A stretch of DNA of 64,000 bases, from assembly GCA_037043015.1 (NCBI GenBank), contig CM073321.1, positions 6,778,001 through 6,842,000 of the forward strand, read 5' to 3'. The translations under genes were made by a program, and so were the position numbers. The notes under the pieces were generated by a model. It made no database searches. It was not told the origin of the DNA and was given only the letters and a program-made list of their open reading frames with translations. The DNA is from Bryum argenteum (taxonomy: Eukaryota; Streptophyta; Bryopsida; Bryales; Bryaceae). Position 1 is the stretch's first letter, and each line of letters begins with the position of its first letter. Shown here in pieces: positions 8,286-37,194 of the stretch.

Positions 8286-9012
8286 CAGCGGCCGACATTT
8301 CTTACGCTCCAGCCGACAGCCTTGCGCGGGAGCGGAGGCAGCAGCCGACATTCCTTACTCACCAGCCGACAGCTTTGCGCGGGAGCGGAGGCGATTTACA
8401 CACCAGCCGACATCGAGCACTCGCCAGCCGATACAGCTGCGATGGCGTCGTCGAAGAGGTAAGCCGATTTAGCTCTTTGTGACGTTTCAATTTGTGCCGT
8501 TTCGATTGGCGTCATTTCATTTGCGGCTTTTCGTGATCTTCTTGTGCCTTGTGTGTCGGCTGCCAGCCGATAGCTCACAAAGTGTCGGCTGCCAGCCGAT
8601 AGCTCACAAGGTGTCGGCTGCCAGCCGATAGCTCTCAAGCCGTCGGCTGGCTGCCGATAGCTTGAGAGCTATCGTTACCGCCAGCCGACAACTCGAGATC
8701 TGTAGCTACTTACCTTACACTGCTTGGTGTATCGGCTGCCAGCCGATTGCTCTTATGCTGAAGCTTGTTCTCTTGTAATGCTTAGTGTATACGTTGGCCG
8801 TTAATAGCTCCAATGCTGTAGCGCGTTACCTTGCCTTGTGTATTGGCTGGCAGCCGATAGCTTCTATTCTGTCGGCTGGCAGCCAATAGCATGCTATTTG
8901 CAATAGGTCATTAGATTATCACCGTAACTAATGCATGTCAAAGACAGACACGCATTGTCGCTATCGGTGGCAAAATGATACCATGGTTCTTATCGGCTGG
9001 CAGCCGATAAGA
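8286..9012. repeat. Densest motif-A palindrome cluster (leader and intron 1)
   Basis: Half sites and spaced arms (CAGCCGACA) occur at 8,286-8,440. Full palindromes follow at about 8,553, 8,582, 8,611, 8,640, 8,727, 8,843, 8,868 and 8,990, with a half-like copy at 8,673. The first four are in tandem with a period of about 29 bp (palindrome plus GCTCACAAG-type spacer). Most of the cluster lies inside intron 1 of the ParB-like gene (8,459-9,088). Confidence 0.9.
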
Positions 9013-10552
9013 TATGCATTTACTAATATACAGTATTGCACGTTTACTGGCATTTACTAATATACACTCACATGACTTTATTCTGCAGAAAACCACCAGT
9101 CCTAGTTAGACTGCTTGGTGTTGAGCTTGCACACATGGAAGTCAAGCATGGAGACATCGTCCCGCGTGCAGTATGGGCGGCTAATCCAGCCATCCAGCAA
9201 TGGGGACTATGCTGGAGAGTCCTCCCCAGCCAGCGAATTGAGATTGCTTGTTCATACCTGCACAAGGGTAATATGATCCCTGGGTTTGGTGATGTGCTAG
9301 AAATTGTGGAGAATGTGGAGCACGTCGACATTCTTATAAGCCTCCCGGCCCTGAGGGATCCCTCTGCCCCGACCGACTACATTGCCGTATCACTACCGTG
9401 GGCAGCATGCACTGAGGCGGTTTGCGGAGAGCCGGCGGTTCAGCAGGGCATGACCTTCAACGGAGCTGCGCCTGCGACCATCGAGGAGTTCATGGACGCG
9501 TGGTCCGCTTTAGATTACGCTAGGTTGGCCATTAACAACGCCATCGATGCAGCAGCGACTGTGGTACCATCGTCGTCGAAGAGGAAGCCAACTCCTTCGA
9601 AGAAGAAGCGACCTGCAGCAGAGATGGTTGATCTTGGCGATGACAACAATGAAATCGTCGAGGGGTCACAAAATCCCAGCAAGCCCAAGAGACAGGCGAA
9701 GTCGTCTAAGGATGCCATCGAGTATTCACTAGACGAGACCCTGACTAAGGGCAACCAAATGACTTCAAAGATGAAGGACGTCGAGATCGACGCAATTTAC
9801 AAGGCATTGGAGACTGGTCTTGGTCACCTGTTCCCCTACAAGAAGCGGAGGCTGCCGGGGGTTACTCCTAGCGAGAAGCTGCACATCGCTCCGGACGAGC
9901 TCAAGTACAGACGCATCGCGAAAGAACGTCTGGGCCAGGTATTTTGTTTTTCTCACCTTTTCTCATGAGGTACCGCTTTATGTATTGGCTGGCAGCCGAT
10001 ACATCCTCTGTTCATCTTTGATTCATGATTGTTCATTTATTCTTTTCTTCGCAGGTGAAGGCCATCTACAAGGGCTACGGGGCGGTCCGGAAGAAGCCTA
10101 AGATTCATGGAATTCCGCTGAAACGGGAGCCACTTGATACCGATAGCGGGATGATGGCTGTCATGGATTCGATGCTAGGGGAGTTGGATATGTGGAAGGT
10201 TAACGACACAGACCCCGACACCGCCCCAAATATTCCATGGTGGCAGCATCCTACTGTCCACTGGTATATCATCGGTGGTCAGCATACAGTGACAGCCTGC
10301 CGCGAGTTGGCGGACGAGTACCCTAAAGGATCGGATGCCAAGAAGGAGCTTCTCGAATTTGAGATTATCCCAGTGTTCTCGAGGAACCCCATCGATCTTG
10401 TGAGGGTATCAAACGCCCTGAACTTGAATATCGCAGAGAAGGTCGCCAAGGAGTCCTTTCGATCATGCGCGGAGCTCGGGAGGGCAGCATGGAAGCGACT
10501 CGGGTGCCCTGAGCCACATTAGGGAGGCAGGAAGCCGTCACCGGCCTTCGAG
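8442..10552 (+). CDS. ParB-like domain protein of element A, exons 1-3
   Basis: Three exons fit: 8,442-8,458, 9,089-9,938 and 10,055-10,552, all with GT..AG introns and a continuous phase. The junction gives MASSKRKPPVLVRLLG, which supports this start. Residues about 170-240 are Lys/Ser-rich with likely nuclear signals (KRKPTPSKKKRP). Exon 3 holds the ParB-like segment: WYIIGGQHTVTACREL (10,265-10,308) resembles the G-x-H-R..A box of ParB/sulfiredoxin-fold domains, followed after about 20 residues by FEIIPVFSRNPID..RVSNALN. In bacterial ParB this domain binds CTP and loads onto parS; here that is inference. A stop lies 11 codons before the exon end, so the protein may end there or the copy may be damaged. 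Each intron contains motif-A palindromes. Confidence 0.65.
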
Positions 10553-12121
10553 GTAACCTTACCCTCTGCCATTCCTATCAGCCGGCAGCCGACACATTGC
10601 ATCAATCTCCACCTATCGGCTGCCAGCCGACAGTCCTTCTGCTTGCCTTCATTCATTTAAATATGTTTTGTTGTTCTTCAAGCTGCAAAGGCGCAAGTCA
10701 TGGCGCACTTTGTGAACGAGAAGGTGTCTTCCAAGCTCCCCTTGGTATTCGTCGGTGACAAGGCCTGGAATACGTGGCTCGAGGTCTTCAATGCCTGGGA
10801 AGCAGGTGAGCTAATTGGGGACCACGGCAAGGAGCCGGGACTGATGAAGCGGTCTCCAATTTCGAACATCACGAAGACTGACCTTGTCCCGACAGTGGTC
10901 TCCGTGACTGCGATCTCGAAGAGCTTGCAGCGGAGGTCATTGCGAATCGCGTCTGCATCAAGGCTAACAGCAGGACAAAGGACAGACTCACACTGCCTGA
11001 CTGGTGCCGCGACAAGAAGCTCGACCGGGTCATCATGAACGAGCTTATGTATCAGCTGCAGAGGTATCCGCTTCCTTGCAAGGATGCGAACTGGTCGCCT
11101 TACCCAGATGCTGAGTGGGACAAGTTGGGGAAGGAGCACCATTTCACCGCGAGTGTCGTGCGCAACATCTGGACCGACTTCAAGAAATACACGGACGGGA
11201 ATGAGTGGCTTAATGGCCGCGCGAGCGCAATGAATCCGACAACTGACAAGTCGAATAAGGTTGCGCCGCCCATATTCAGCACTATCCTGCAGACGTATTC
11301 TCAGGTCCAAGTCACGATGCAGGAGGTCGATGCCGAGAAGGCGTATTTCGAGTGAAAATTCGCGGACACAGTTGCTCATGTCGTGCAGGAGATTGACGCA
11401 GCTGTTGGCCATACCGGCATAGAAAAGGACCCACTCCTTATTGTCTACTTCGGGTACAATGTTGGCGGAGTCTCGGTCCCAACTAGTAGAGCGGATCTTC
11501 GTGCGCTCGCGGAACGTTCAAAGGTCCCACTCACGGATGACGACCTCACGATGGACGATGACGACGTCACTCCGACTCGGCCGCTTTACCCAATCCCGAT
11601 GTTGTTCATAACGAGCGCGAAGCAACGGGATCTACTTTCTGCTATCTGGACAACCGAAGATACTGAATGGTATGTTCAGACAGTGTATCACAAGCCGTGT
11701 CTTTGGGGGGTTTCAAGAAGACGGTGACGGAATCTTCGCCGCTTGTTACGCTCAACATGACGTACCCAAAGGTACGCGGGGATGATGATCGGTGGACGAC
11801 ATTCAGGAAGTATACTGGAATCGTGAAGCCAGTCGATTGGTTCCAGGCATGTCCTGAAGGTGCTGTCGATTGGAATGGGGGATTCTGCGGTGTCGACCAT
11901 GAGACGCTCGAGAAGTTCCTTAAGCCAACTCTCACAGCGAAGAAGGTCACCGTCATCAACGTTTGGGGTGGCGGAAACGTCATCAAGCTTGGATTGGTAA
12001 GGCATCCTCTCCTTTTATTTGTATCGGCTGCCAGCCGACACCTTCCGATATTGGTTTATTTTACCTTATTCGTTTTCCAATACTTGTTTGGTTCCCATGG
12101 GTCTCGGTTGCCAGCCGACAT
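9981..12121. repeat. Motif-A palindromes in introns 2, 3 and 4
   Basis: Copies lie at about 9,981 (intron 9,939-10,054), 10,576 and 10,613 (intron 10,553-10,690), and 12,020 and 12,100 (intron 11,998-12,149). None lies in the exons between them. Confidence 0.85.
10691..11997 (+). CDS. Middle region of ParB-like gene with possible methyltransferase remnant
   Basis: The exon begins after an AAAG acceptor and reads AQVMAHFVNEKVSSKLP in phase with exon 3. It matches the layout of 37,333-38,403 in element B. The first part is helical and charged (PDAEWDKLGKEHHF..IWTDFKKYT). The last part reads PLVTLNMTYPKVRGDDDRW and, 80 residues on, KKVTVINVWGGGN. In spacing this resembles the DPPY-type motif and a following beta-strand/GG turn of amino-methyltransferases, a partner known for phage ParB domains, but the catalytic DPPY is not intact, so the call is weak. 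The frame is interrupted about three times. A donor TTGGTAAGG ends the exon. Confidence 0.45.
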
Positions 12122-12149
12122 TGTCTTACTCTTGTTCATGGTCTTGCAG

Positions 12150-15100
12150 AAAAATGGGAGGTCCGTGATCGAGTCTGTCAGAAGTCAGGACCATGATCGA
12201 GTCTGTCAGAAGTTGGCAGTCCAACGTGCGAAGGGACTCAACCTCGATAGGGTCGAGCTTCCACCGTCGTCTTCCGAGGATATGAAGACCGACGCTGGTC
12301 CCTCAGTTTCGTCCCGGGAGCCTGTCAACCCTGGACAACGTGGTGTTAGGATTACGGAACTGGTGGAGGAGATAGATCTTACTCCAATGTCTCTCACACC
12401 TGCAACCACGCCGACGGCTCCCCTTGAATCGACTGCCACACTCATCCCTCCGCTTGTATCGGCTACCGGCCGACACATTGCACTATAAGAAACCTGCGTT
12501 TTTAGTGATGTTGTAAATGATGTCTATAAAGACAACGTAGACATTAATTCGGATGTCTTATAGACGATAAGACATCCTAGACAGCTCAGATATCTATGCA
12601 GACATCTAAATAGACCGGAAGATGTCTTAAAGATCGAAGATGTCTTAAGGTAATTTTGAAAGGGTAAAAAGTGTGCCACGTAGGTGCCACGTAGATGACA
12701 CATCAGCTTGAATTCAACGGGCAGTGCCACTTGGGGATGAAATTCATCATGATGTGGAATTTTACATGGTCCTACGAAAGATGACATGGCGGTGCCAGAA
12801 TCCTACATGGACCCGGGAAAATCCAACGTGGCACGCGGGAAAATCCGACGTGGCACGCGGGAAAATCCGATGTGGCACGCGGGAAAATCCGACGTGGCAC
12901 GCGGGAAAAGTTGACGTGGACGGGGGAAAATGACGTCGCATGCCACGTCAGCATATTTTGGAGGTTTTATGCTTCTATCATGATAGTTTTAGACATCAGT
13001 TAAGACGACTTAAATGTCTTGCAAAATATTTTAAATGTCATACAAGATGTCTTGCAAGACGTATACAATGTCTTACAAGATATCTTAAAAGACATTTTGT
13101 ATGTCTTATAAGATGTCTCCAGTGCGTAGAATGATGTTTAGGTTGATGTCCTTCTTAAATTTGTGATGTTTGCTTGGATGTTTGTAGCGACATCCCGTAG
13201 GACATCCATGTAAACGTTTTGTGTTAAACATAATGTTTGCAACAATGTTACTATTGATGTTTTCTGGGCATATTAAAGGACATCTATGATGACATTTTTA
13301 GATATTTATATCGTAATCAAATTCGTAATCCACAGACGTCTCACATAACATAAACTGTAAACACTGTCACGTCAAAAAGTTTGAGTCAAACATATATTAC
13401 TTAGGTCATTAAAACCTCAGATAACACAAAACTAGACTATTAACTAATACGTCTGTCAACAACTACGATATACTACGCACCCACAATTTGAACTCCGGAA
13501 GCCCCTCCACTACCATCGCTTGCTGTCGATACCTATATGGTCATGTGCATGTCCCGCCGCTACACATGTTCAATAAGCCAATATCAACTGTATTAAAGAA
13601 GGGTTTGTGAAGGTAAAAAAATTCTGATTTAATTCCATTTAATTGCACTACCTAGGTTGACATGGTTTACTTCCTAACCTCAAGATATCGACATAGTTAG
13701 ACATTCTTGCAAACATCTGCTTAGACATTTCTTTAGACATCCTTCTAGACATCATTAAAAACAACGTTATAGACATCTATGCATACATCTGTTTCACTCA
13801 CCTACAAGCACGTATGTCGCTTCATTTTTTCTTCGCGGCCTCACATCGTATTTCGCTGCCCCACCCTCATGTCCCACCCTCCAAAACAGAAATTCCATCA
13901 ACACAATTAGACATCTTCATAGACATGTTGTAAGACATCTTGCAGACATCATCATAGACATCTTCTACAACAAATGAAATACTACAAGTACTAGGCTTTC
14001 CTCCACAACAAATCAAATACTACAAGTGCTAGGGTTTCTTGTACATGATGATTTTGAAATCCAGTTCCTCTTAAGTAGCAAATCTTAGCCACATGAAGAA
14101 GGAAACCACTACTCTTGAGAGCTACTAGATTTCTACAACTACTATTCTCTTATTGTAGTTAACAATCATTCTAAAATTGAATAGAAACAATTTTGAAATC
14201 CTCTATACTTTAAACACTAACTCTTTGGAAAAACTAAGGCAAAATTGAGCTTTGTAATTTCATTTAGAGGTCTCACGACCTAACTATGGCGGCGGCAGCA
14301 AACGCTAACCACATGAAGAAGCAAACCTTAGCCTCTACACTCTAAACACTAACTCCTTGAAAAAATGAAGGCACAAATGAGCTTTATGCGACCTCTAATT
14401 CTACTTAAAGGTCTCATGACTTGACTATGGCGGCGGCAGCAAACCCTAGCCTCCTCTGTTCATCCACTGAAGTCGATGAAAATCATCCCTGTAGATGATT
14501 ATGGATGATGTCGTAGATGTCATCTTCGACAACTTCATAGACATCATGTTAAACATTTTCATGAACGTCATCTTAGACATCCCTGCAGATATTATCAAAG
14601 ACATCTGATGACATCTTCAGAGTTTCAACTACAACACGTTAATCATAAAAGGTTTTTTGTTTTCTTCCACAACAAATCAAATACCAGATGCTTTAAAGTT
14701 CTTTCCACAACAAAGCACGTATTGTAAAACATAGAGTTTCTTCCACAACAAAGCACGTATTGTAAGACATAGAGTTTCTTTCAAAACAAATCAAATAATC
14801 TTTATTGATAGAAAAGTGTGGAATCACAATTATGAGACTATTTATAGTCTCCCATGGTGATAGGCTCTCCTTCCAACTCTTAACTACCTTTTATTTTTGC
14901 CCTAACTAGCTTTCCAACCAACTTTCCTAATACTAATTCTATTCTAGAATTGACTCCTAAACTATATTAAATAGCTACTTTCATAAATTCATATCTCTTG
15001 TAAATTTGTATAGTATTGGTAGTTGATGATAGAATAATGTATAAACTTGCCATTGGACTATAATAATCTAATCTATAAGTAATCAATAATATTTAGTTCC

Positions 15101-15814
15101 TTCTTGAAGTAAGTCAAAAAATACTGTTTATTGTTTTTATTTTCTTTTTATATTTTTTTAAGTATTCGAGGATTAAGGGTTATCAGAGACAGAGCCTAAT
15201 CAGAGACCCGCGCCAATGGAGGACAAGCAGTAAGAGAAGTAGTTGACATTATTCTTAAGAGACCCTTAAGTACTGCCGCTTTTTGGTAAATGACGTCTAG
15301 GAGGATGTCGTGCAAAACATCTTCATAGACATCCCAATAGATGTCTACGCGGACATTCATGCCTGACCGTAGTTATGGTAAGTTGGACATCGTGTTAGAC
15401 ATCCGACTAGATGTTGCATGACTTGTCAACTGGTCCGAAGTGGAGATTTTGTTGCCATGTAGATAAAGCGTTGTAAATAACTTTTTTAATCTATGTCCAC
15501 ACTTTTTTTGAGGATTAGATATTCACGAAATTACTTTTACTTCAAAATTCTATTTTTCGGCACCATTGTTATTTTACAAATATAATATTTTTTATATAAT
15601 ATTTTTTGAATATTTAAATAATTTTAAATCATAAAAAAATTACAGAATTATAATATTTCAGTTTATTTGAATATAATAAAAATTTACAAAATATATTTTT
15701 TATTGGAAAATGATTTTTTATTTTAATATTATTAAAAAATAGACCAATGAAAAAATAGTGAGCACAGCCTGAAATTAGTACTTTCAATATTGCCATGTCA
15801 CATAATGATTTAAC

Positions 15815-15850
<36 letters not shown>

Positions 15851-16429
15851 ACAAAAGTGTGATGTTTTTTTTTCTACTTTTGATAACCGCTGCCCATTCA
15901 GCTACTCTTTTAACATTAGAAATGCTTTTTACCTTGTCCAACGGTAAATTTTGGTCGTTTTTACCTTGCTGGTCCAAAATCCCTTGCCAACGTGGCAGTT
16001 TGATGTCTATCGGGATGTCTTCAAAGACATCCATGTCTTCACCAACATCTTTTTGTTTGGTGATGTCTTCATGCCCCTCCAATCCAAAATGTGCCCGTTA
16101 GACGTACAGACATCCTCCCGTCTTCGAAGACATCTTTTAAGACAGTAAGACACCACAAAATACATTAGACATTACACAAGACATCACAAAAAACAGGGTT
16201 TTCTAATAGTGTTGTCACCGTGTCAGCACCGGCTCCTGATACTAGAGCAGATGTGCCTTCTTGTGCTGGGACCACGATGCAGCTTGATTTGCAACATGCC
16301 CCGGAGGACGAGGTGATCGTTGTTGAGCAGGTGCCACCGTCTCCTCGCCCTCAGAGGCCTTCCCAGTCCGTTCCTGCCCTTATCGGCCGGCAGCCGACAA
16401 CTCCGACTTCTTCCTCTAGGGAACTTTAG
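12150..16429 (+). CDS. Acidic/Pro-rich tail exon, split by a CACTA insertion
   Basis: Coding parts are 12,150-12,480 and 16,214-16,429. The left part (KNGRSVIESVRSQDHDR..) contains a 13-residue local duplication (VIESVRSQDHDRV/CQK) and an acidic segment ITELVEEIDLTP. The right part continues in the same phase (VTVSAPAPDTRADVPS..) across the insertion, and one TTG copy is a target duplication. Both parts are low-complexity, rich in Pro, Thr and Ser. Two motif-A palindromes (12,456 and 16,379) are translated here. The exon's end near 16,429 is where the AT-rich/hAT block starts. Confidence 0.55.
12828..12917 (+). repeat. 22-bp tandem repeat inside the CACTA
   Basis: Four copies of GTGGCACGCGGGAAAATCCGAC with few changes. 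The GC-rich unit contrasts with the AT-rich CACTA body. Confidence 0.85.
13965..14790 (+). repeat. Local duplications inside the CACTA
   Basis: About 40-bp units (CTTCCACAACAAAGCACGTA) repeat at 14,697-14,781. A related unit repeats at 13,965-14,040. A longer duplication relates 14,208-14,310 to 14,338-14,452, each ending in ATGGCGGCGGCAGCAAA. No gene fragment is recognised. Confidence 0.65.
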
Positions 16430-17985
16430 AGGGCTTAAAAAATTTAATTCTAAAAGCAAAATTTCATCATTTACTTTCATCATATACTCTTTAATTTTAT
16501 TATCATATATGTTTCTTTCAAATTCGTTGAGTCTAACCCACTTGAATTTTATGTAAATGGACGTGGTTTTATTTATACCGTATATAATAATTACTCATAT
16601 TTTCTAATATCATTCTTATTCACATTATAATTAGAATACTTCAAAATGACTTATAGGAACAAAATAAGTTTTTTTTTTTTTGCAATAGGATCTAAGATTA
16701 TATACTCCCCAAACGTAGTGCCTATTTTTAACCAAATGACGCATTTCCAAAATAAGGGTCCTATATTAAAATGAAGATGCACAATTTACATTCTCAACCA
16801 TGTAATATTGTAATAGAGTTATAGAGCATGTGTGACCATTTAGTTTCATAACTTTGGTATTACCGTGTTAGGCCTTAAGTTGACCACATTTAGACATAAG
16901 AATACTCTTAACTTAAAAAACATTGTGCTTAAACAACTCATTCTATTATTGGCTATTTTTGTTTGACACCCTTGAACTAAGCTAGGAGTATATTTATATT
17001 GTAGTACATATAATTGTACTTAATTTGCACATATTCTTTTTACATAATTATTAGTAGCATTTTTATTATTGTATTTATTTGAATAATTATTTATTTACCT
17101 CTTACAAAGGTAATAGAAACACGATTCTATTGTTTTCTATTTTGCGATCACAAATAAAGAGAAGTAAAAAGGGAGACAAATAAATTTTTGAAAATATCCC
17201 ACTCTATAAGTTTTTAACATATGGCATCAACTTATAAAGATTGGTGTTGGAAATCTTTGGAAACTCAATTGTGTGTGGAATGAAAATAATGGATTCGTGT
17301 ATGTATGGTGTAGTATTGAATTATATTTTTAATCGATTACAATGCCACTTTTCTCCATCGCATTGTTATTATTTGCAAAATAATCTATTTTTTATTTATT
17401 TTTGTTTGAAGATGTTATTGACATGGAATAAATCACGAGTTTATTGCAAGGAATATATTGGTAGTATTTTCAACATTCAACATAGGATCTAAGATTATAG
17501 ACTCCCCAAACTTAGTGCCCATTTTTAACCAAATGTCGCATTTCCAAAATAAGGGTCCTATATCAAAATGAGGATGCTCAATTTACATTCTCAACCATGC
17601 AATATTGTAATAGAGTTATAGTTGTAGGTCATGTGGCCCAAAGTTGAGTCATATAGCCTCATAGATTACGAAATCATAATATGTTAGTACAAAGAGAATT
17701 TACGAAATTTCATCATTTCCATATTGAAGTGAAAATTCATATAACAAAGCTACTGCAATTATGAAATCTCCAAGTAAACCATAAACCTAAATCCTAAACC
17801 CTAAACCCTAAACCACTAAACCCTATCCGTGAATAAAGAATATATAGCATTTCACAAATCAACATAGGATTCCTTTTTTCATTGTGTAATAATCACTGAG
17901 AATCTAATAACAGAAATCTGAGAGGGATTAAAATTTAAAAAGGATCCTATGAAATTTTGAAAGATTTCAGTAATACATTGGAAAC
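16430..17985. other. AT-rich block with internal direct repeats, no genes
   Basis: The segment 16,686-16,825 recurs at 17,484-17,622 at high identity (both start AGGATCTAAGATTATA). The segment 16,825-17,230 recurs at 18,930-19,440. The segment 17,622-17,760 recurs at 20,835-20,965. This is scrambled old repeat DNA. It lies within the insertion that splits element A, and I cannot tell whether it belongs to the hAT element. Confidence 0.65.
17783..17826 (+). repeat. Short telomere-like CCCTAAA patch
   Basis: About five adjacent CCTAAA/CCCTAAA units. Interstitial. Confidence 0.75.
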
Positions 17986-23694: not shown

Positions 23695-26595
23695 CTATTC
23701 ATCCACATCGGTGGGAATTGCGTAATCGCTGTCTCCTTTGACTTCAGCTCCGCTAGATCCCGTAGGGTCATCTTCAAAATCGGTACTAACTTCTTGTTTG
23801 ATTCTTCGTTTGTGACTTCCCGGATGAATGATCTTGAATTTTCCCGCATTCCCAATGGCATCAAGGGGATTCTTCCGTTTATCATGAAGAAACGGAAGCA
23901 TTGGAGCTTTACGTTTTGTCATAACTTTTGGAGGCTCCTTCTTCCGTAGCCCTGAACCTCCTGGAAGGTTTTTGTATCCCAATTGAAGAAGCGGTACATC
24001 CGAGTCACTAGAGATTCCGCCGGAATTGGTATGTAGTGTTTGGGGTCGCACTTGATTTGAAAGGGACACCAAACGTTTGGAAGATTTCTCCATCACTGTA
24101 GGGACCTCTACAGCACATTTTTGAAATAGAGACCGAGAGGCAACAGCAGGCAACGCAGGTTCGTCCCTAGTGGCGGACGTCATATTTCCCGTGATCGGAT
24201 CAAACGTTACTGTACCGCCATGAGTATCATCCCCCACGATTTTCTCATTCAGAACCACATTCTCGTCCGTATTTGGAGTTAGTCCGGTACGAAGGGTATT
24301 ATCACAAGTGACTTTGTCGGTATCCTTTTGAAACCATGGTAAATGAGCTAGGGGCAACAATTCATCTGGATCATCCGCCTCAGCATCATCGTCAACAAAG
24401 TCATACTTGGTGGTCGGGACGTTCAAAGCATCTTGCAAGCTCATAGCAGGGATGCTATTGAGGTCATCTTCTAGGTCCTCTAAAACGTGATCCGCAAGGC
24501 CTTTACCAATTGAGTTATGGGGGTTTCTTCATCCTCGGAGTCACGTACGTCATCATCCTCTACATCCAAGTTCTCCAAGTACCACCTCTTCTCATCCGTT
24601 AACTTTGCGTTTGCAAGTAACTTTGAATTGGTGTATACAAAGACCAACGCATCAGCCCTTTCCGGTAGCAACCGATTCGGCTTCCTATCGTGAACGAAAG
24701 AGTAACTGCTCCAATTGCGTTCGCACGCCGACGATGACACTGTTTGTGCTAGGATTCGCTTTGCAATCGGAGCAAGGAGTTTTCCAACAAACCCTTCAAT
24801 TTCCCACCAAACAAAGGGAGAACATTTCGACTCATTAGGATCCAACATCTCATGAAATGGTGCACTCCTCATTCGAAATGCCATATATTCATTCGCCACA
24901 TCATGATAAGTGCCCGGAGCACATAGAGTTTTTAGAACACGCCTGCACCCATGCCAGACCTCAGTATGATCTGCTAACTGTTTGTCATGTAGTAAATAAG
25001 GATTCAAAAGTGCACCAGCACAATGCAGATCTGTTGTCATCATCTTTTTCCTTGCGTAAAAGTTCTCCTTCGCAATGTCCGCTAAATCCGTCGGGAGAGA
25101 AAATGGTTCTGTAGATAGCGTCAGTACATGCTTCTCGAGCTGATGAACGATATGCAAAGCCTTGCCCGTACAAGGCTCCTTGCTATCGAATTCCCGAAGA
25201 GCATACACTACTGGGGCCACCATATCTCGGAAGTTTGTACAACGCTTCCAGAAACCGTTATCCAAAACCACTTTTCTTACGTTGCGGGACTCCAGTAATT
25301 TATCTCTAGCTGATAGAGACTTTTTCGTGGCATATGACAACCACTGGGGATCTGCAACAGTTTGCTCCAATGATTCCCGAACCTGCAATAAGCGATCTAT
25401 CATTATAAAATTGCACGCAAATCTTGTTTTCCCAGGCATCAATAGGCTAAACCTTGTTTCGTGTTTACGAAACACGGCTAAAGGCATTTGACGATTTTTA
25501 ATGAACTTGACCAAGCCCTTGGCCTTTTCCAAAGTTTCTTTTACCCATGACGCCTTTCCCCAATCTTCCAACAACAAATCCATCGCATGCATGGCGCATC
25601 CCTGAATGAATATATGGGGATAATCCTCAACGACTAATCAAGAGGCATTAATCATTACAGAAGCGTTGTCCGTGCAGACTTGGACAACGTTCTCGGGGCC
25701 AACTTGTTTGATGAACTTGACCATGATAGAGGCCATATACATTCTTGTCTTTTCTTTGCCGATGTATATCGACGGCGCCAAGAAAAAGCTCTCCAAATAG
25801 AGTCACTAGCATTGCATTCACAAGAGGGCGACTACTCACAGATGACCATCCATCCATGGCTAAAGTTCCCCCGAACTTCCGAAGGCTCTCCTTGAGTCTA
25901 CTATCTAGTTTTCCTTCTAGATCACTTTTTACTTGTCCCAACAACCTTGTCCGAATGTCATGGTAAGAAGGAGGGACATATGGTTTTCGGAAAGACGCAG
26001 TTTTCATTACAGCTTCCTTGAAGGCGGGATTCCGTGCTACAGCAAACGGTACGTTTGCTTCATAGAAAAACTTTGCCCAAAGTATGTCTAGTTCCCGCCT
26101 ATCCGCTTCAGCAAAACCATCTTCAATCACAGATTGTTTCATCGCCCTACTGATATGCCCACCAACCCTCACTTGTCCCGCGAAGTTAGGAACGGTGGAG
26201 ATTGATCCAACTAAAGGTGTTGATGGAATCGAAGGGGTAGCTTGAGAGGATCCCACGCAAGAGTCACCACCAGTGGACCTTGACGTGCCAACATTCGGAA
26301 CTTCTGATGATGATGGGATTGAATGTGCACCGCTCATTTCTCCATTATGTGGAGGGAACCGCCCGTCACATCTTGGAAATAAATCCATCACTCGGGTGTT
26401 CAATTTTGGACAAAGCGTTACTGTATTAAGGCGGACCCCATGCTTGCCTTCATAGCCAAGGTGACTAAGCTGCCGTTCTAGCCTCTTGCTCATAACCTTA
26501 TGACAGAGATTGCATTGGACCGTCGGGGTCGTGGTAGGTTGGCCTTGTACTTCATGAACATCAGTGAACCAAGGTGAGGATGATTTATTGGCCAT
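23695..26595 (-). CDS. hAT transposase (BED finger, DUF659, hAT dimerisation), frame-shifted
   Basis: From the Met at 26,595: a BED zinc finger (CNLCHKVMS..RLERQLSHL), a DUF659-type region (PSYHDIRTRLLG..) with the first catalytic Asp in GGTLAMDGWSS, then the second in CTDNASVMINA (about 25,650), and the dimerisation block with the acidic residue in SSSACERNWSSY (about 24,710). The C-terminal 250 residues carry basic nuclear-type signals (RKKEPPKVMTKRK). The enzyme would cut and paste its own element. A stop and a frame change occur around 25.6 kb and a 1-nt shift near 24.48 kb, so this copy is inactive. Confidence 0.9.
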
Positions 26596-26839
26596 TTTGA
26601 TAGGTAAGACACCTCAAAATGAACAAACGTGGTAGTAGATATGTAGAAAAAAATGTCAAGAGTTCGTAAACGAACTCTGCACTTCCAAACTCAATATGTA
26701 GCAAGCAACGGACACATAACATAAAGTTATGCAGCTCAGAGACCTTGGGTCGCATTCACAATTCGGAAGTGAAATGAGGCCTTGTGTCTCTTCTCTTATA
26801 TACCTTCAACCCTGAATTTGACCGTTGAAATTTGAAATT

Positions 26840-27302
26840 TTGATCGGTCGGCCGATCCGGTGGCCGGTCGGCCATGCCATCAACCTGTCGGGCCTTCGTA
26901 CGCGGCCGACCTCGCCGGTCGCCAAAGCGGTCGGCGGCCGACCTCGCCGGTCGCCAAAGCGGTCGGCGGCCGACCTCGTCGGTCGTCACTCCGGTCGGCG
27001 GCCGACCTCGCCGATCCGCTAACCGGTCGGCGGCCGACCTCGCCAATCCGCACACAGTCGGCCTAGGGAACGCCGGGCCCGCCATTGGTCGGCCGGTCCC
27101 GCCACCGGTCGGCCGGTCCAAGCGTCGGACGGGGGTGCGGTCGGCTGGTCAAAGGATCGGACGGGGGTGCGGTCGGCCACTGATCGGACGGTAATTTATC
27201 CCAGGTAAATTATAAAAAACCCGTTATGTCACCGACAGGTCCTAGGGGCTGAGGACGACCGGACCATGGTCGACCGGTCGCCCCTTGGTCCGGTCGTCCT
27301 GA
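26840..27302 (-). repeat. GC-rich GGCGGCCGACC array, right
   Basis: About four units with a period near 32 bp (CGGCCGACCTCGCCGGTCGC..) at 26,901-27,050, then looser GGTCGG units to 27,300. Orientation is inverted relative to the array at 18.02-18.26 kb. The open frames here are compositional. Confidence 0.8.
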
Positions 27303-27476: not shown

Positions 27477-27608
27477 TTTGTCCTAGACGACGGCGTTTCT
27501 TGTATATAGTCTCTTCTCACCATTGCATCAGCATTTTAGGTTCTAGAATGGTTCTGCTATATGAGTTTCCTGGTTGTAACGTGCTCGGCGAGTTCGTCCC
27601 CTTGTACT

Positions 27609-27912
27609 ACTGTATCGGCTGCCAGCCGACTCCCTATTATCGTTTCACGTTTTTGCCTTTATCCCTTGTCTCCTCTGTCGATATCTCTCAACCGTGTTCT
27701 CTCGGCTTATCAGCTCCTAGCCGACAAGTCGTTATGTCAATTTTTTGCACTAATCCTCTCCCTTTCATCATGGAGTTGGATCTTATGTGTTTTTACTCCC
27801 ACCTTTCTCACTTTCTGTGATTCGTCTCATTCACATTGTGTGATTTGTTGGGTTGGCCATCTGTCGGCTGCTAGCCGACAGATGTTCCCTTGTCGGCTGC
27901 CAGCTGATACAC
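27609..27912. repeat. Four motif-A palindromes in an intron
   Basis: Copies lie at about 27,612, 27,700 (diverged centre), 27,860 and 27,888, in the intron 27,477-28,023. Their return right after the hAT block shows that element A resumes here. Confidence 0.85.
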
Positions 27913-28023
27913 TCTCATCCCTATAGTCTTTAGCCACACTCCTCTGCCTCGCTCTTACCTCACTCTTTTGCATACATCTTGCTTCTCTTTTGGTTATTGT
28001 ACAAATGCTCTAATCTCATGCAG

Positions 28024-28781
28024 AGGTAGGTGAGTCTGCGAACGAGGAGATCGTGGACTCCGCTTTTCATGGATCGCAGCCGGGCACCTCTATTGCGACT
28101 CATCTCTCACCTCGAGGGCAGGTAGCCCCGCTAAAATATTTTATTCTCTTCGTCGTCAATGGCACTCTCGTTCACTTCGTTCCTCGTAGGGTCGTTCCCG
28201 ATGGGGATTGTCCCCGTTAGTTGAAGCAGGAGGCAAGGGCAAGACCTGGCCTTGCGGAGTTAATAACCTTTTGCCTGAATGCAAGGTTTGAAATTTGTTT
28301 CTGGTCCTCGGTATATCAGAAGAACCTTAATCCGAGGATTGATTTTATTCGGAAAATTTGTCCCAATCTCTCTAAGGACGTCTTGGAGTTTGATCAGAGA
28401 TATTGTTTCCGGAGTTGCTACCGAGACCCTCATAATCCTGACCGGCCCTACTTTCTAAAGTCAATTGATCATCTCCTTGAAATGAGTCCTGAGCTGGTTC
28501 GTTGTGGTGTCAATCCCGATAACACGCCTCTCATTGACGACTCCCCCTACAAGAACGTTTTGAACAATCCGTATAATGCGTTCCACTCCTCCACCTGCAC
28601 TTTGACCTCGGAGCTGAATTTGAGTGGGAAGCCTTACTTTCAGAGGATTTTGCAGCCTCTATTGTACGAACTCCTATTCCTCCGGAAAAACTATTCCTTA
28701 GTTTTTTCAGGAGCACCCAAGGTTAGGGCAACACCGTATGTTCCCGACTCATCCGCTGTACGAGAAGTACAAGAAGATTGA
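28024..28781 (+). CDS. FCP1/NIF-like HAD phosphatase domain, first copy
   Basis: After an acidic stretch (GESANEEIVDSAF) the HAD fold starts with YFILFVVNGTLVHF. Then come RPGLAELITFC..FWSSVYQKNL (motif II), KSIDHLLE (motif III Lys) and TPLIDDSPYKNV (motif IV at 28,536-28,547), in the order and spacing of FCP1/NLI-interacting-factor phosphatases. The nucleophile of motif I, an Asp in DxDG or DxNG, is Val here (VVNG), so activity would be lost unless this is a sequencing or decay change. One in-frame stop lies between motifs I and II. Known relatives act on RNA polymerase II C-terminal domain phosphoserines; what a transposon gains from one is unknown. Confidence 0.75.
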
Positions 28782-28878
28782 TTTTGGAAGGAAGGAGTAA
28801 TCATAAATTGATTACTCCTCCTCCTCTTTTTTTGCCTACGAGGTGTTCAAGATGTTGGAACAAGTTCAAGAGGCTCCA

Positions 28879-30605
28879 GTTGTCGGCTGCCGGCCGATAC
28901 ACCTCTTGTTAGCCTACATAGAATACCATCTTAGTACAGGTCTTTAGCGTGGGTGTATAGATTTTGATATCATGATCTAGGGAACTAGAGTTTATAAATC
29001 ACTTAGATTTTCTTCTAGTTCTGTAAAGTTTCTAGGGATCTACTCCAGACTTTTTCTTAACTGTATATTATGAGGTTGTTTAATATGCGAAGAATTTCTT
29101 TATCTCAACATGTAGAGTTTTCTATCATAGTCCCTTTCTTGGTGTTGGTTCTTATATTTGGTGTTTGCTGATTTATTCTTTTTAGCTTAAGGATCCATGG
29201 CTTCTTCTGGTCATTGTTTCGGTGATGTTTCTACTCATGGACTGTCTAGTTTGTTTTCTTCTCCTGTCAGCTGCCATCCGACACCTCAATGTTTATATTG
29301 TTTTTGTCTTCTTGTCGGCTGCCGGCCGATACGCCTGCCCTTATCATTCTATTGCTGTGAATGGCATTTCTATCCTTCGATCTGACTTATTTTAGGCTTG
29401 TACCGTTCAGGGTGACTGCCGTTTCGATTATGACATTGCTGGTACTTCTTCCTCCAAGAAGTGTATCATTCTATGCGTATCTGGATTGCTTTGCTACATC
29501 AACCCCAATATTCCGACGGATCGTTGGAATGCTCACCGTAATGTTATCAAGCGGCCAGGTCTAACAAAATTATTTGCCATGTTGTTGGAGCGCTTCCATG
29601 TTGGTCTCTGGTGTACGATGCCGATCCGTGACTTGACGGCTCTCCTATCTTATATTCTACCTTCTGGCGTCATGGACAGGCTATCATTTGTTTTTGGTAG
29701 AGAATGTTGTGATCGTCCTATGAATTTTCCGTAGTGTTACAAGCTCCTGAAGACTCTCTATTGCAAGCGGCGTTCCCGTGAGGTGTGCAGGCCCGACCAG
29801 CTTCTCCTCGTTGATGTTTCTCCACAGGCGTTAAGGTTGGCGCCGGATGCTGCGTGCTACATGCCTTATCCTTTTTGAGGTGATTTGACGTCTTCAAGTA
29901 CTACTATTCCGAATGTAGCTACAGATATCCTTCTGATCATCTACCCCTTACACTAGTTCGAATCTGTTAGTGAATATATGAGTCTTTCCAATAGACCGGG
30001 TCAACTTCATTATGAAGTTGCTCATTCCCTCAAGGACAGTGTTCCTCTCAGATTGCAGTGTTCCTAGGTTTTACTTATTCTGCATGCCTGTCGGATGCGA
30101 GCCGACACTTGAAGCGATGAGCCGGTGCAGCAGAACCTGCGATGAGCCGGTCACCACTCGCACTTGTCGACTTCTCGCAGTCGGTCTTCAAATCGAGATT
30201 TGCCAAGGAATTATATCCTGGATTGTTGAACATGGAGCGCCAGAAAGGAGGAAGCCGATGATGGAGTGGCGTTGCTACTTATCGGCTGCGAGCCGACACC
30301 ACTGCAGTTCACCTATATTATATCTATGTTCTGCTTCAATACGTGGTGTTGCTGTATTTTGTATACGGTGTTGCAATATTTATTGATGCGAAGTTAGTGC
30401 AATCGGCTGCACGCCGATACCACATGCTAATGGGTCGAGCTTCGTTTGGAATATTCGTTTATTCTTTTAATGAAATGGATTTGTTTCCTACTCTAATAGT
30501 GTATTCATCTTTAATTTCTGCCAATTGCTAATATATTCAATCATTCTGTTTTTTTGCCTCGCCTTGTTTGCGCCTTTGAGGTGTGTCGGACGGAAGCCGA
30601 TTGAT
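28879..30605. repeat. Seven motif-A palindromes near the right end of element A
   Basis: Copies lie at about 28,879, 29,267, 29,312, 30,088, 30,278, 30,399 and 30,583. The outer ones are more diverged (GTCGGATGCGAGCCGACA, GTCGGACGGAAGCCGAT). The last is about 20 bp from the right inverted repeat. Confidence 0.85.
29411..29878 (+). CDS. FCP1/NIF-like HAD domain, second copy
   Basis: It starts after a CAG acceptor (GDCRFDYDIAG) and shows KKCIILCVSGLLCYI as motif I, KRPGLTKLFAMLL..VGLWCTM as motif II, YKLLKTLYC as motif III and LLLVDVSPQAL as motif IV. The nucleophile position is Cys (IILCVSG). One in-frame stop lies between motifs II and III. Only remote similarity to the first copy remains, so this is an old tandem duplication or an inactive partner domain. 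Confidence 0.6.
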
Positions 30606-30620
30606 TTCTGGACTTCCAAA

Positions 30621-30640
30621 TTGTCCATAATTAGTTAAAT
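30621..30640 (-). repeat. Right inverted repeat of element A
   Basis: Reverse complement of 1,891-1,910, all 20 bases identical. AT-rich DNA without palindromes starts immediately outside it. Confidence 0.55.
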
Positions 30641-30659
30641 ACCCGTTTAATAAAACTTT

Positions 30660-33600
30660 TACCATTGTTGCAAACATTTTTTACCACAATTCATCCGACT
30701 ACACAAAGAGAAAAAGAAACTTTTAGTTATTAAAGAGATAGTGTCATTTGTTATTTGAATCTCTACAAGATTACCTTAAATAGAGTATAGGGAGAAAAAC
30801 ATGTAAATATTTAATTACATGAAACTTATACTTAATAAATGTTCAGAGGGAAAACAAATTGTTTTCATTGTGTACCTTGGATTGATGTAGTCTTGACTAA
30901 TTTTATTTTATATTATACTAAATTAAGTACGCAGAACTTCGAAGAGTTTCATAGAGCTGTGATAGAGTAGGAAATGGAGAGTAGAATTGTAGAGTAATTA
31001 TGTGAATCTATTTGCTTTACTTCCATATTTCAATCCTAACAATTGTTAGGTTTATTTTAGTCAATTAGCATGTGAAATGGTGAACGCTATTAACATTTGC
31101 TAAGCCTTTATGTCTAGCGTTTATGCTCAATTTATCAAAATCCACAGGTCATGTGAAGTATTGTAAGATTCGTATTTACTAAAATAGGTGTAATATTAAA
31201 AGATTGATAATTTGTACCCTAAAACAATTATAGTAAATAAAATTTTGAATTTATTTAAATGTTATTCTATAAGATTAGTTTCTACCTAATTAGGTGTGGT
31301 ATATTAAGTATGATATTTAATTATGTTGAATGTGATATTCTACAAATGGATATTATAAAGTTAATATTCAATATATTTATGTGAGATACTATTATATAAG
31401 TATTTAGACAGTGAATAAGTTGAGGAATTATAAGTTTATTACTTACTTTTTTCAAGTGTATTATTTCCATATATGATATTTAAAGTATAATATTATTGGT
31501 TTAGAATCAAGTCTTATTAACATTCAGTGGGTAAATATATTTTGTAGGTTTAGTATTCTATGTGTGATATTCAAACGTAATAATATTTAGTTTTACTTCA
31601 ATTCTTATGCTAAGATGAATTTTATATTATGGTATTCTAAACCTATTTTCAAAAATTTAGAATGTATCCACATTTACGCTTTCTTCCATCAAGTTGCTAT
31701 CTAGCTTCTATCTTTACTTTTCAATCCTAAATCTTTAACTTCAAAAATAATTAACCTTTAATCCTGAACCCTTAACCCTATAACCAAAACCTTAATTCCT
31801 AAACACTATAGTCTAAATTCTATATAGTATACCCTATACTAAACCCTTAACCCTAAACACTTAACCTTGAATCATAACTACTATACTGTAAAATATTTTA
31901 AACTTGGTAGTTACTTTGAACTTCAATCCGTAATTATGGAAAAATATCAAAAAACACAAATTTTAAAATTCGCCCGTCAAACACTAGATAATTTTTGAGA
32001 TTACAGGTATTTTAAAGTTAAAGGTATTTTTTAGTATTACGTAAAAATTTTTAAGAATATAAATTTAAATTGTTTTATAGAATAAAGAATAAAAACCATA
32101 TGTAAAAAAATAACTTAGACAATGTTTAAATAAAAATTTATCATTTATTAAACTAGGTTAAAATTATTATGAAGTAAGGCTTTTAGCAATTTATCCTTAT
32201 GATTGAAGTTATATACTATTTCTGAACATAATTCTTATTTCTACAACCAACACAAAACACGTGACATTACACGTAAGTATGCATTTGGTATATATATGGC
32301 CTCTTAAAATAAGGAATGGAGCGACGGCCAATAAACTTGTATTATGTTTTAAAAGTATATCATATTACATTATATTATATTATACGAAAAGGTGACCGAG
32401 ATGCTACTAGCAACGTTTTGATTACAGAGACTCGAGAAGCATTTTTGCAAGTTTTGAAGGTTGGGAAGAAACAACATGAAGATGAACGTGAGGTGAGTCG
32501 TTTACTTCAAGACTTAGAAGAAGACATCGATCGATGAGATCGATCGATTTCACGTAGATTGAAATTGACTGATTGTGATTGCCTCTAGAATGGTGTATCT
32601 CTTATATCGATTCCAGTTTATTCTATAACCTTGGACGTCTATAGGATCACTGTCTTGGGAATTTGAAGTCATGGCCCATTTTTTAGTGTTTTTAATTTTT
32701 TTTATGGGGAATACTATGAGTTCTTCAAAGGGCCGGTTCACATTACAGCAAAAATGCGAGAAGTTTTTTGATTTTATAGTTTACTAAACTATATCAAACC
32801 AAATTTATTATTTTATTATATTAAACTATATTAATTTTTATTTAATGTACTAATATGTTTTATTTTACTATATTATACTATATGAAAATATATTTCTTAA
32901 TTAAGTATATTAACTATTACCAAATATACTCTTATATACTATTATACTATATTAAACTATATTAAAATAATTATTATTATATCATATCATGTTAAGTTAT
33001 GTTATATTATACTATTTGTTTTGAATTTTTACTATTATACATAGAATAATCTATTGTACTTTGAATTTTTTAATAATATTTGGTGTCTATCAGTTCTAGT
33101 TGTTGAATGTAAATTTTTATTATGTTTTGTTTCATTAGGCTATTTACCTGCTAAATGAGGAAATGTAGATTTGCAATCATGTGCATTCTTCATATATAAA
33201 TTAAATGCAATTTGAATTGAGCGTTTGTACTTTATTCCGTTCCTTGCTAACAATATGCTTATTGCATACAAAATTACCCAATGTAGGTGAAACAAATTAA
33301 ACCTTAACCCTTATCAATTAGATAATTATGTTGCAATAATAAAACTTGTCCTAACTTTGAAATCAAACATGAAAAAGAACCATTTTAAACAAACAGTGAA
33401 GGGAATTAGTGATGTACTCTGAGCACGGACTGTAATCTCAATCCAATATGTCAGATGTGAAGACTTAAAACGAGGGAGATTGATAACGTTATGAGCATAC
33501 CAACCTACGCAGGTAGGATTGATCTTTGTAGGATTGATCTACTTGATTCCGCTTCCCGCTTGGTTCCTCCATTGAATCAATCTGATAGTTGCTACTGTAG

Positions 33601-35590
33601 AATGTCTGCAAATGACACAAGTTGAGTGTCGTCCCTCAAAACAAGTTGAGTGTCGTCCCTCCTATTTTTTTCAAGGAATGTAAGCAATCGGAATAGAAGG
33701 TGATGTAGTTGAAGCGCAAGGGGTTCTTTTTGCTTGATTCAAATTTTACAATGTTGCCCGTCACATTGGGTGTCAAAGTTTCCTCGTGGATTATGATCGA
33801 CACAAATGAAAATATAAATAATGTAAACTTAATTGTTTAAACTTTTGTTTTATTCATTAATTTTGATAAAATCATAAAATTAGATTCCTAAAATTCAGTT
33901 TAGATCTTAAATAAATATTTGAGTGTTACTAGTTTGTACTAGAGGATCACAAGTGTCAAGTTAGTACTTGCGGGTTTTAAAATTGTAGTGGCAAGTTACA
34001 AGTTTGTACTTCTAGTTTTAAGTTTGCATTAAAGGATCCCAAGTTTGTATTTAGGCTTGAAAACAATAATAGTAAAGGAGTCTTTTGTATTTCATTTTTA
34101 AACAATTATAAATAATCGGATCCAAAGTGAATTTCTTTAGAGTTCAGTTCAATGCACTAATTCAAATAAAATGATAAAATTAGATTTTTGAATTCAATTG
34201 GGATCTCAAGTTAGTTCTTGAATGTCTCTAGTTTGCCTTTGAAAGCAGTAATCCGGCATAGACCTGTATATAGTAAGATTATCAATCTATAATATATTCA
34301 TCTTTATCATAATTGGAAACTTGCTGAATGAGGTAGGCAATGATTGTAATTGATATTGTTTATAACGTTTATGGTGACAAATTCATACATGCAATATTTT
34401 GAGTCTATTTAGGCGCTTTAGGGTTAATCGACCTGTTTGGTTTAAATTAAAATTGCTTATATCTCTCATAATTACATAAGCTTAAGGTTAAACGTCATGT
34501 ACAAAATTAAGTCTCATAACATGAGTACCATAATTCTTATGATGAATGCACTCCTATAGGTTCAATTGCACCAAATCGGTTTCCAAAATTTTGCATGCAA
34601 GTAGCTAATTTGGAATCCTACTTGAAAAAAATATGCCATAAACATTTGAGGTAACGAACTTCAACTTGCCCTTGGCACCATTTGCACTATGTGTCCCGGG
34701 CAATAGCCAAAAAAACTTTTGCATCAACTTTGAACGTTATGATCTCACAAATGGAGAAGATCCAACGGTTGAAATTTTCAACAGCAGATCAAAATCAAGT
34801 ACATTAGAAGATCTTACGACTGGATTTCTCAAATTTGTAAAAAAGTTTGATGCAGATAGCCGGGAGTGAACCGGACTCAAAACAGGCAGTTTTGAGACTT
34901 CTTGCTCCCAAAACATCAAGGAAATTTAGGGGTTAATAAGTTACTCCTACGTATCGACTGATGATGATGTCATTGATCAGCAACAATTTTCCATCGAATT
35001 TGACGATTGATTGATCATCAACATTACTATGAAGTGTAAATTCGCGAGCGACTCGGAGCTCACTTGCAAAAGAGAAAATTGTAGACAAAATTTGAATTTA
35101 AATTAACATATAATGCACTGGAATTCTCATTTTCCTTCTACACATAGTTGTTTTTAGCATATGATACTTTTAACATGTTTACTACAAGTAAATGATCTTA
35201 TTTTGGTATTTTAGAAATGATAATATCCTCCTTATTCAAACTTAAGAGGGTTAATTTAAATGATGACAGATACATTCGTTACTCTTATATTTTATTTGTT
35301 GGATTATTTCATTTTTAAGGTTCTTATAAGGTAATACAAGTACAACAATCTTATCCTCGTATTTTAATTATTTACATTTCACTTATTATTCAAAGTTTGA
35401 ACGTATTAAAACTTTTGCAAAAAACTTATAGCATATAAAGTCAATTTTTTCACAAGTTATACAAGTTATAAATATAACCATCATTTTTATAGGATTCCTT
35501 TTTAAGATTTTAAATTATCTTAATTCACCTTATTTTGATTTCCTTCCAATTAATCAAAGTTTTAACCATACAAATAAATTAAAGTAATTG
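30660..35590. other. AT-rich gene-free region
   Basis: I see no credible gene. It contains degenerate CCCTAA-like strings (31,745-31,870), simple TA/TTA runs (32,760-33,060), a 23-bp direct duplication around 33,617-33,661 (AAGTTGAGTGTCGTCCCTC), and small open frames (32,316-32,537, 34,666-34,869) without domains or codon bias. Confidence 0.6.
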
Positions 35591-35599
35591 AATTATGAA

Positions 35600-36170
35600 A
35601 ACAAAACAAAAAAAAAAAAACAAACGAGCAACCCAAGCTGCCCGGGCAGCCCAAGGAGGTCGGCTTAGCTCGGGCAGTCGGGGCAGCCCGGGCAGCACCC
35701 AAAGGCGGCGGACGAGCTTGGTACAGGGCGGGAGCGGCCTCCTCCCGACAGCTCTTTCCGCCCGCCTCCCCCCGCCCAACTCCCGCGCCTCCATCGTTTT
35801 GTTGTTGTTCATCGCTATGTCGGTGTTGCCTTCGCGCCTACCCCACCCAGCTCCCGCGCTTCTCTCGCGTCGTCCTGCTGTTGTTCATCGTGCAGTTGTT
35901 CATCGTGCAGTATCGCTGTGTCGGTGTTGCCTTCGCGCCTGCTCGTGCTTGCTTCGCGTGTGCTTCCGCCTGCTCCGTGCCTACTGCGGCCTTCCATTTG
36001 CTCGTCGTCGTTCCCTGCTCTGCAAGCGCATTTATCCACGAGCTTTTGCGCATCCTCGTCCTCGTTTCCTGCTCGTTCTCGTTTCATGCTCGCTGATTTA
36101 GGGCGCTGCCGCATCCTCATTGCATTCTTCCACGACCTTCCAGCGCAGATTGTAAGTTCATAATTCTGAA
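35600..36170 (+). promoter_or_regulatory. GC-rich leader of element B
   Basis: An A-rich run is followed by CpG-rich DNA with GCCCGGGC palindromes (35,640-35,690) and a duplicated segment (ATGTCGGTGTTGCCTTCGCG at about 35,817, near-repeated at 35,917). The open frames on both strands here overlap and lack domains, so I read this as a non-coding leader of the plus-strand genes. Confidence 0.4.
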
Positions 36171-36397
36171 TTTTAGGTTTTATACTGAGGTTGCGCTTTT
36201 GGAGCTTGTTTTGTACATTCCAGGGCACAATGTTATAGGATTTTGCTCCCAGTGTAATGGCATTCATGCAAATTTGTGTTCTTTGCTTCGAAATTTGTGT
36301 TTTTCTGTTGAAATGCGCTCATTTCAGCTTTCAGCTCATTTAGCTCGATGCCCATTTAACTAGATTAAATAATGTAATTCTCCAGGACAACCCAAGC

Positions 36398-36634
36398 CCA
36401 TTTAGCTCGAGTCGAGCTAAATGATCTCGCACCTCGTTTCAAGGCAAGCCCATTTAGCTCGACTCGAGCTAAATGGGGTTTCTACTTGGCTCGAGGTCAA
36501 GCCCATTTAGCTCGACTCGAGCTAAATGGGCCTGACCTGAAATCAAGTAGCAAGTCAATTTAGCTCGACTCGAGCTAAATGGGCTTGACCTCAAAACAAG
36601 GTTCGCGACCATTTAGTTCGAGTGGAGCTAAATG
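36398..36634. repeat. Five motif-B palindromes upstream of the ParB-like exon
   Basis: The consensus is arm TTTAGCTCGA, one central S, arm TCGAGCTAAA. Copies lie at about 36,398, 36,449, 36,502, 36,556 and 36,609, roughly every 53 bp. The copies at 36,449 and 36,502 extend to 29-bp perfect palindromes with CCCA/TGGG flanks. Confidence 0.95.
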
Positions 36635-36656
36635 GACTTGAACTAGAGCCAAGTAG

Positions 36657-37194
36657 TGTGTTTGGTCGCGACAATCCGCCTGACGTGTCGATCGGCCTGC
36701 TCAACCCTACTGAACCAAGATTCATCGTGAGATCTTTGGAACCGACCGGAATCGCCCATTACAAAAACATATTGATGAATTCCCTCGATGTTAGTTCCAG
36801 GCAAACAATCATCACTATGCCAAAGATTAAAGATGAGCCTAAGATTTGGGATTAGGAAGTTCTGGTCCAAACTTGTCGATTCCGGATTATCGATGGGCAG
36901 CACCACGTTGAGGCTGCGAAACAGTTGATTCGTGACAAGAAGGTTGACGCCGCAAAGATCCTTGCCCTGCAGACATGGAAAGCTCATGTTGTGTGGCATT
37001 CGGACATTAGCAAGATTCTGGACGTGTCGGCCATGGCGAACAAGACGAACAATGCTGGCACGTTCATTCCTTCCTGGGCAACGAACATCAAGGGCGCAAG
37101 AAAGGTTTGGGAAGATTACGGCCGCCCGGTAAAATTGAAGAAGCCACACCGATGTGAAACAGCGGTTGAAGAAGATAACCGTAAACGATATGAG
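36657..37194 (+). CDS. ParB-like domain exon of element B
   Basis: It starts after a CAAGTAG acceptor (VFGRDNPPDVSIG..) and contains FRIIDGQHHVEAAKQLI at about 36,880-36,930, the same G-x-H..A box as in element A, followed by HVVWHSDISKILDVSAMANKTN, which parallels PVFSRNPID..RVSNALN in A. An in-frame stop precedes the box. It ends at a TATGAG|GTATGA donor. The upstream segment FIVRSLEPTGIAHYKNIL would fit the first strand and helix of a ParB N-terminal domain. Function (CTP or DNA binding) is inferred. Confidence 0.6.

Follow-up and report, generated by a model that had tools for sequence, protein, structure and literature searches.

ParB-like genes in putative DNA transposons of the moss Bryum argenteum are linked to clade-specific palindromes

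We analysed a 64,000-nucleotide stretch of the genome of the moss Bryum argenteum (GenBank assembly GCA_037043015.1, contig CM073321.1, positions 6,778,001 to 6,842,000 of the forward strand; C1:6778001-6842000 in the 258.8-Mb genome of 25 contigs scanned here), hereafter the window. It carries two repeat elements, A and B, and in each of them a gene for a ParB-like protein lies among many copies of a palindrome (Table 1). The ParB-like box reads IIGGQHTVTACREL from 10268 in element A, inside the open reading frame (ORF) 10022-10522(+), and IIDGQHHVEAAKQL from 36886 in element B, inside ORF 36856-37200(+). A matching downstream segment follows each box, PVFSRNPIDLVRVSNALNLN in element A and VVWHSDISKILDVSAMANKTN in element B. 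The initial annotation had described both boxes and both segments; all of them are present, with each box 3 bases away from the position then given (10,265 and 36,883). The ParB-like domain of element B was also rightly recognised, and its limits are corrected here: it begins at about 36661, upstream of ORF 36856, and is cut by an in-frame TAG. The N-terminal coding part found before this domain in the relative L061 is missing from the window copy.

When up to 4 mismatches are allowed, the palindrome of element A, motif A (TATCGGCTGSCAGCCGATA), occurs at 41 window sites: 16 at 2236-7948, 14 at 8554-12457, one at 16381 and 10 at 27613-30401. That of element B, motif B (TTTAGCTCGASTCGAGCTAAA), occurs at 11 (10 at 36401-39270 and a weak one at 47051). 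Neither motif was found in 10 first-order Markov shuffles of the window, and the earlier report of dozens of palindromes around the ParB-like genes holds. Genome-wide, exact matches numbered 256 for motif A, 4,929 for motif B and 689 for motif D of another clade, while the reversed-pattern controls gave 0 each. If all bases were equally frequent, chance would give about 0.0001 occurrences of a 21-base word with one two-fold position in a genome of this size, and about 0.002 of a 19-base one.

Our results support a tight link, clade by clade, between the ParB-like gene and its palindrome. There is one palindrome per protein clade, motif C being ATCGGGCGATCGCCCGAT and motif D TATCCCCGGSCCGGGGATA, the latter in arrays upstream at intervals of mostly 61-62 bp. 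At up to 3 mismatches, the palindrome of the own clade was found at every one of 66 loci, and none of motifs A to D occurred in a foreign class. Clade A accounted for 30/30 loci (248 sites), B for 30/30 (146), C for 2/2 (27) and D for 2/2 (39), and both B' loci carried motif B (7 sites, those of L069 degenerate). The test covered loci other than L001-L004, which had been fetched by the motif itself, and other than those added later; motif sets C and D come from two loci each and motif E from one. Motif E (TATCCTCGASTCGAGGATA) was taken from L071, a probably eukaryotic contig that is filed with a cyanobacterial metagenome assembly. At up to 3 mismatches this motif overlaps D, with 4 hits in D loci, and with 5 E hits and 1 D hit in L071; it also gave 3 single hits in A loci. 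Two A relatives show a drift toward TATCGGCCGSCGGCCGATA: in L075 (exon 74% identical), 5 of 10 sites have changed in both arms and the remaining 5 in one, and in L074 (65%), 2 of 7 sites have changed in both; a third A relative, L073 (56%), shows no such drift. The link was also visible from the side of the palindrome: among the 50 listed A sites, which all lie on C1, 45 had an A-like exon within 12 kb, compared with an average of 1.0 for random places. For this comparison, 44 places on C1 with A-like exons were taken, without the weaker classes (identity of about 32-40%) and some short fragments.

Element A also carries a DUF7869 gene, on the strand opposite the ParB-like gene and with motif A palindromes throughout. 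The palindromes could be the sites of the DUF7869 protein or of a host factor, with the ParB-like gene as a passenger, since motif A covers the DUF7869 gene as well. However, palindrome identity tracks the ParB-like clades exactly across the 66 loci, and we consider this explanation very unlikely.

Some palindromes also fall in coding sequence. The D palindrome lies in frame in the coding tails of L067 and L068, giving repeated DYPR.GDN-like peptides, and P0012, from another source, has IYPRPGDN. The peptide encoded by the B palindrome, LAR(V/L)EL, is present in the tails of the B-type homologues P0027, P0028 and P0037 from other sources, and motif B may thus be conserved across species.

In the structure prediction, the core of the ParB-like protein is a ParB/sulfiredoxin (Srx) fold, as in the N domain of ParB. 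The model was made from L061, an intact relative of B, and the element A exon was one row in the alignment behind it; a structure check of the kind proposed with the initial annotation, made on this relative, returned the expected fold. Profile searches gave little: no ParB-type Pfam family matched the ParB-like exons at E limits of 1, 5 or 10, although the HMMER filters remove most Pfam matches above E 0.1, and NCBIfam had no ParB-type family at E up to 1. Scans of the ParB-like and C-terminal exons against Pfam, NCBIfam and PHROGs returned weak or unrelated matches, the best being a PHROG of unknown function (4.6e-4). ParB was not among the matches of Protein Data Bank (PDB) sequence searches with a protein or a profile query. 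No relatives were found in two viral-contig scans and the first genome-contig scan, and the sole relative in the second was the record behind P0015.

Bacterial ParB is a DNA-clamp protein whose canonical nucleotide motif is of the GERR type. In our alignments, [DGN]GQH[HST] stands at the position of this motif. The DGQ signature is related to that of the bacterial DGQHR/GmrS proteins (PMC4619093, as far as its accessible text goes), but the aligned proteins have DGQH[HS], NGQHS or GGQHT plus SxxxN, and exact DGQHR and FxxxN were unmatched.

The region following the ParB-like domain appears to be degenerate and N6A/N4C-methyltransferase-like. For the C-terminal exon, modelled from L069, all 50 structural matches listed were DNA methyltransferases or MTA1/METTL3-type enzymes, and the first downstream exon of element A is akin to the C-class C-terminal exon (BLASTP E 1e-14 to L065). 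The intact catalytic motif of N4C/N6A methyltransferases is [DNS]PP[YFW]; none of the 17 rows, of which some were partial, and none of 3 window ORFs contained it. The structural matches would fit an element that marks itself by means of an active N6A/N4C methyltransferase, which the ParB part would bring to the palindromes. The same has been proposed for a Sola1 element of the alga Ectocarpus (PMC12477816, accessible part), yet for the moss proteins we find it hard to credit.

Both elements are, we infer, DNA transposons, because their families are scattered across many contigs and contain DUF7869, whose protein would be transposase-like. Within 30 kb of B-type exons, 20 DUF7869 matches were found among the best 150 of 1,809 candidates, compared with a mean of 6.7 and a maximum of 15 in shifted controls. 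Eleven of these lay upstream and divergent at 9.2-12.4 kb, and two more upstream and divergent at greater distance. In the window, the DUF7869 ORF beside element B may belong to another copy, since it lies downstream here and mostly upstream and divergent elsewhere. A DUF7869 fragment (242-922 (-), 2.4e-6) lies at the left window edge. B-type exons were enriched (120 of 150 scored) on contig C1, which spans 44 Mb or 17% of the genome and is possibly a repeat-rich chromosome; we made no use of this enrichment because 150 of 841 B-type candidates were scored and candidate selection may have biased it.

Element A is larger than initially described, since motif A covers the divergent gene (2.2-7.9 kb) and recurs at 16381 past a CACTA-type insertion. 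The earlier account was right about ParB-like genes with palindromes, but overlooked the DUF7869 gene, the methyltransferase-like C-terminal region and the precedent in algal transposons. Exact 12-bp inverted matches between 200-3200 and 12000-17000 comprised only an A-run and matches in or beside palindromes; neither terminal inverted repeats nor a target-site duplication of element A was found, and its true ends were not located. One alternative is a role in transposition, in which the palindromes would be accessory sites for transposase-complex assembly or end recognition. Such a role would suit the clustering of sites both upstream of the gene and at a second place several kb away, and a DUF7869 gene that accompanies the ParB-like gene in element A and some B elements. 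We nevertheless judge it unlikely, given that no terminal repeat was found around element A and that conserved palindromes also lie in internal introns, which have no need of ends.

Table 1. Features of elements A and B in the window
Feature	Position	Strand	Remarks
Motif A palindromes within and beside the DUF7869 gene	2236..7966		16 sites, the last (7948) with 4 mismatches; scan at up to 4 mismatches
DUF7869 (PF25273) ORF, divergent from ParB-like gene	3944..5020	-	hmmscan E 4.2e-43, 147.6 bits (cut-off 26)
Eight motif A palindromes, 5' region of ParB-like gene	8554..9009		four at 29 bp spacing
Open frame, N-terminal region of ParB-like gene	9027..9968	+	without Pfam match
Motif A palindromes in two putative introns either side of the ParB-like exon	9983..10632		sites 9983, 10576, 10614
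ParB/Srx-like exon of element A	10055..10522	+	putative start; TAG 10520-10522 where relative L016 continues
Downstream exons of element A gene	10882..12016	+	broken: TGA 11353-11355 and frame changes
Motif A palindromes	12022..12475		12022, 12102 (putative intron), 12457 (open frame); mismatch scan
CACTA-type insertion CACTATAAGAA...TTCTAATAGTG, nested in 3' part of element A	12481..16211		3-bp duplication TTG; read from sequence
Motif A palindrome, putative continuation of element A past insertion	16381..16399		
Five motif B palindromes upstream of ParB-like exon	36401..36632		spacing 52-53 bp
ParB/Srx-like domain of element B	36661..37200	+	interrupted by TAG 36853-36855; model of L061
Motif B palindromes in putative introns	37272..38573		sites 37272, 38449, 38484, 38553
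C-terminal, methyltransferase-like exon of element B	37546..38271	+	partly degraded; alignment and model of relative L069
Motif B palindrome inside open frame near 3' end	39270..39290		
DUF7869 ORF downstream of element B	42352..43056	-	hmmscan E 2.2e-36

Immediately to the left of the first motif A palindrome there is a short run of CCCTAAA telomere-like repeats (2119-2177). The third motif A cluster, at 27613-30401, surrounds a NIF-type phosphatase ORF (28221-28778, 5.2e-5), and L072 has another NIF-type ORF (4e-6), downstream of the B copy L061; the phosphatase is a possible further accessory gene of these elements. Elsewhere, the window contains hAT-type transposase ORFs at 24483-26613 (-) (Dimer_Tnp_hAT 1.1e-8, DUF659 2.4e-9), apparently unrelated to elements A and B, a 32-bp tandem repeat rich in GCGGCCGACC at 26870-27061, and identical, long terminal repeat-like 300-bp direct repeats at 58402-58701 and 63595-63894, 5.2 kb apart.

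We then compared copies of each element, using putative exon and intron limits. In 29 A copies, identity to the window was 94.3% for intronic palindromes, 82.6% for the remaining intron and 88.6% for exons; the corresponding identities of 29 B copies to L061, in which the intronic palindrome is the counterpart of window site 37272, were 95.4%, 83.6% and 88.3%. On resampling of copies, the intronic excess ranged over 0.091-0.141 for A and 0.074-0.144 for B, and it was matched by 0/242 and 1/130 circular shifts, respectively. This conservation above the remaining intron argues that at least the intronic palindromes matter. Upstream palindromes also stood above their surroundings (A, 78.8 vs 71.4%; B, 83.5 vs 71.7%), while the far 3' B site was scarcely alignable among B copies. 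One possible explanation for the upstream sites is an autoregulatory repressor like plasmid KorB, which would bind promoter-proximal palindromes and hold down its own and the transposase gene. Sites in several putative introns would be unexpected for a simple promoter repressor, and we regard this as distinctly doubtful.

Since each protein family sits among many copies of its own palindrome, the ParB-like protein probably binds its own element. We tentatively favour, as a possibility not yet a probability, that it is a self-specific anti-silencing or activating protein, because a family-specific motif with upstream tandem repeats and intron copies is the pattern of VANC target motifs. In the proposed transposon, a DUF7869 gene for a transposase-like protein is paired with a divergent accessory gene. 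The accessory product would consist of an N-terminal domain, a domain of the ParB/sulfiredoxin fold and a degenerate region resembling N6A/N4C methyltransferases. This protein would bind the palindrome of its own clade, in the array upstream of its gene and at repeats in the putative introns of both genes, so that copies of the own element are recognised and other sequences are not. Occupancy at many points could then keep the element transcribable, the role that VANC proteins have for VANDAL elements in Arabidopsis, and the accessory protein may recruit or exclude chromatin factors.

It is attractive, given the fold, to speculate that a clamp spreads from the palindromes, though the nucleotide motif differs. 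The initial annotation had suggested an analogous eukaryotic ParB system, of which the ParB/Srx fold and the clade-specific link of gene and palindrome stand, but GERR is replaced by [DGN]GQH[HST]. A full eukaryotic parS-ParB-like system, in which each clade has a nucleotide-gated ParB-fold clamp that loads at private palindromes, spreads and shields the whole element from silencing, protein and palindrome diversifying into non-cross-reacting pairs, seems rather improbable to us.

Several observations weigh against the favoured reading of a self-specific anti-silencing or activating protein. Because copies in a clade share motifs by descent, the 66 loci count as roughly four independent pairs, to which another record adds one. 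Motif change follows protein divergence loosely: B' exons that are 57 and 63% identical keep motif B, and L073 keeps A. Five of the 50 listed A sites have no A-like exon nearby, and 7 of the 20 DUF7869 matches near B-type exons are not upstream and divergent (three upstream on the same strand, four downstream). Upstream palindromes fall below exon conservation, with single A sites at 67-90% and many gaps. Among the nine base pairs of the arms, covariation was above all shuffles for 8/12, below the shuffle mean for 2/18 and indifferent for seven. Both window copies are broken. Compensatory arm changes were considered as proof of binding and rejected, as only pair 8/12 beats all shuffles.

The closest precedent is the Ectocarpus transposon Sola1-1_Ec32, which has a ParB-methyltransferase accessory gene, with relatives in green and red algae (PMC12477816, here and below as far as accessible). 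Both have a ParB-like domain in a gene opposite a transposase(-like) gene of a large DNA transposon; in the alga an N4C/N6A methyltransferase domain follows the ParB-like one, and in the moss a putative methyltransferase-like region does. The DUF7869 neighbour, the absence of the catalytic motif in the rows read and the clade-specific palindromes, of which the accessible text makes no mention, are the moss elements' own. According to the accessible parts of PMC5735166 and PMC10398659, VANC of VANDAL transposons binds its target motifs and causes methylation loss there; it is likewise an element-encoded protein with family-specific short motifs, in tandem repeats of non-coding parts. The likeness lies in the motif pattern: the VANC21 motif is the 9-bp YAGTATTAY and ours are 18-21-bp palindromes, and the ParB-like exons have no Pfam family. 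Bacterial Bce_0392 joins a ParB domain to an adenine methylase, comparable to the putative arrangement here, and nicking activity has been reported for this fusion (PMC5512222, accessible part). Bacterial ParB, Noc and plasmid KorB share the ParB/Srx fold and palindromic sites near the gene, but differ in the nucleotide motif, and here hundreds to thousands of sites are dispersed with the repeat family. In titles and abstract openings, with subscription papers mostly outside reach, we found no link of such proteins to clade-specific palindromes, and the literature search found no paper naming DUF7869. Similar ParB-like transposon proteins are known from algae, and the matching palindromic words look new.

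Together, the private 18-21-bp palindromes are a concrete candidate for how ParB-methyltransferase accessory proteins find their own transposon. They would form a candidate recognition system with thousands of sites per genome for one family and with intronic copies conserved above exons. Transposon self-recognition becomes testable here, as a possible independent parallel to VANC, and the clade-specific pairs could yield orthogonal protein-DNA pairs out of one genome.

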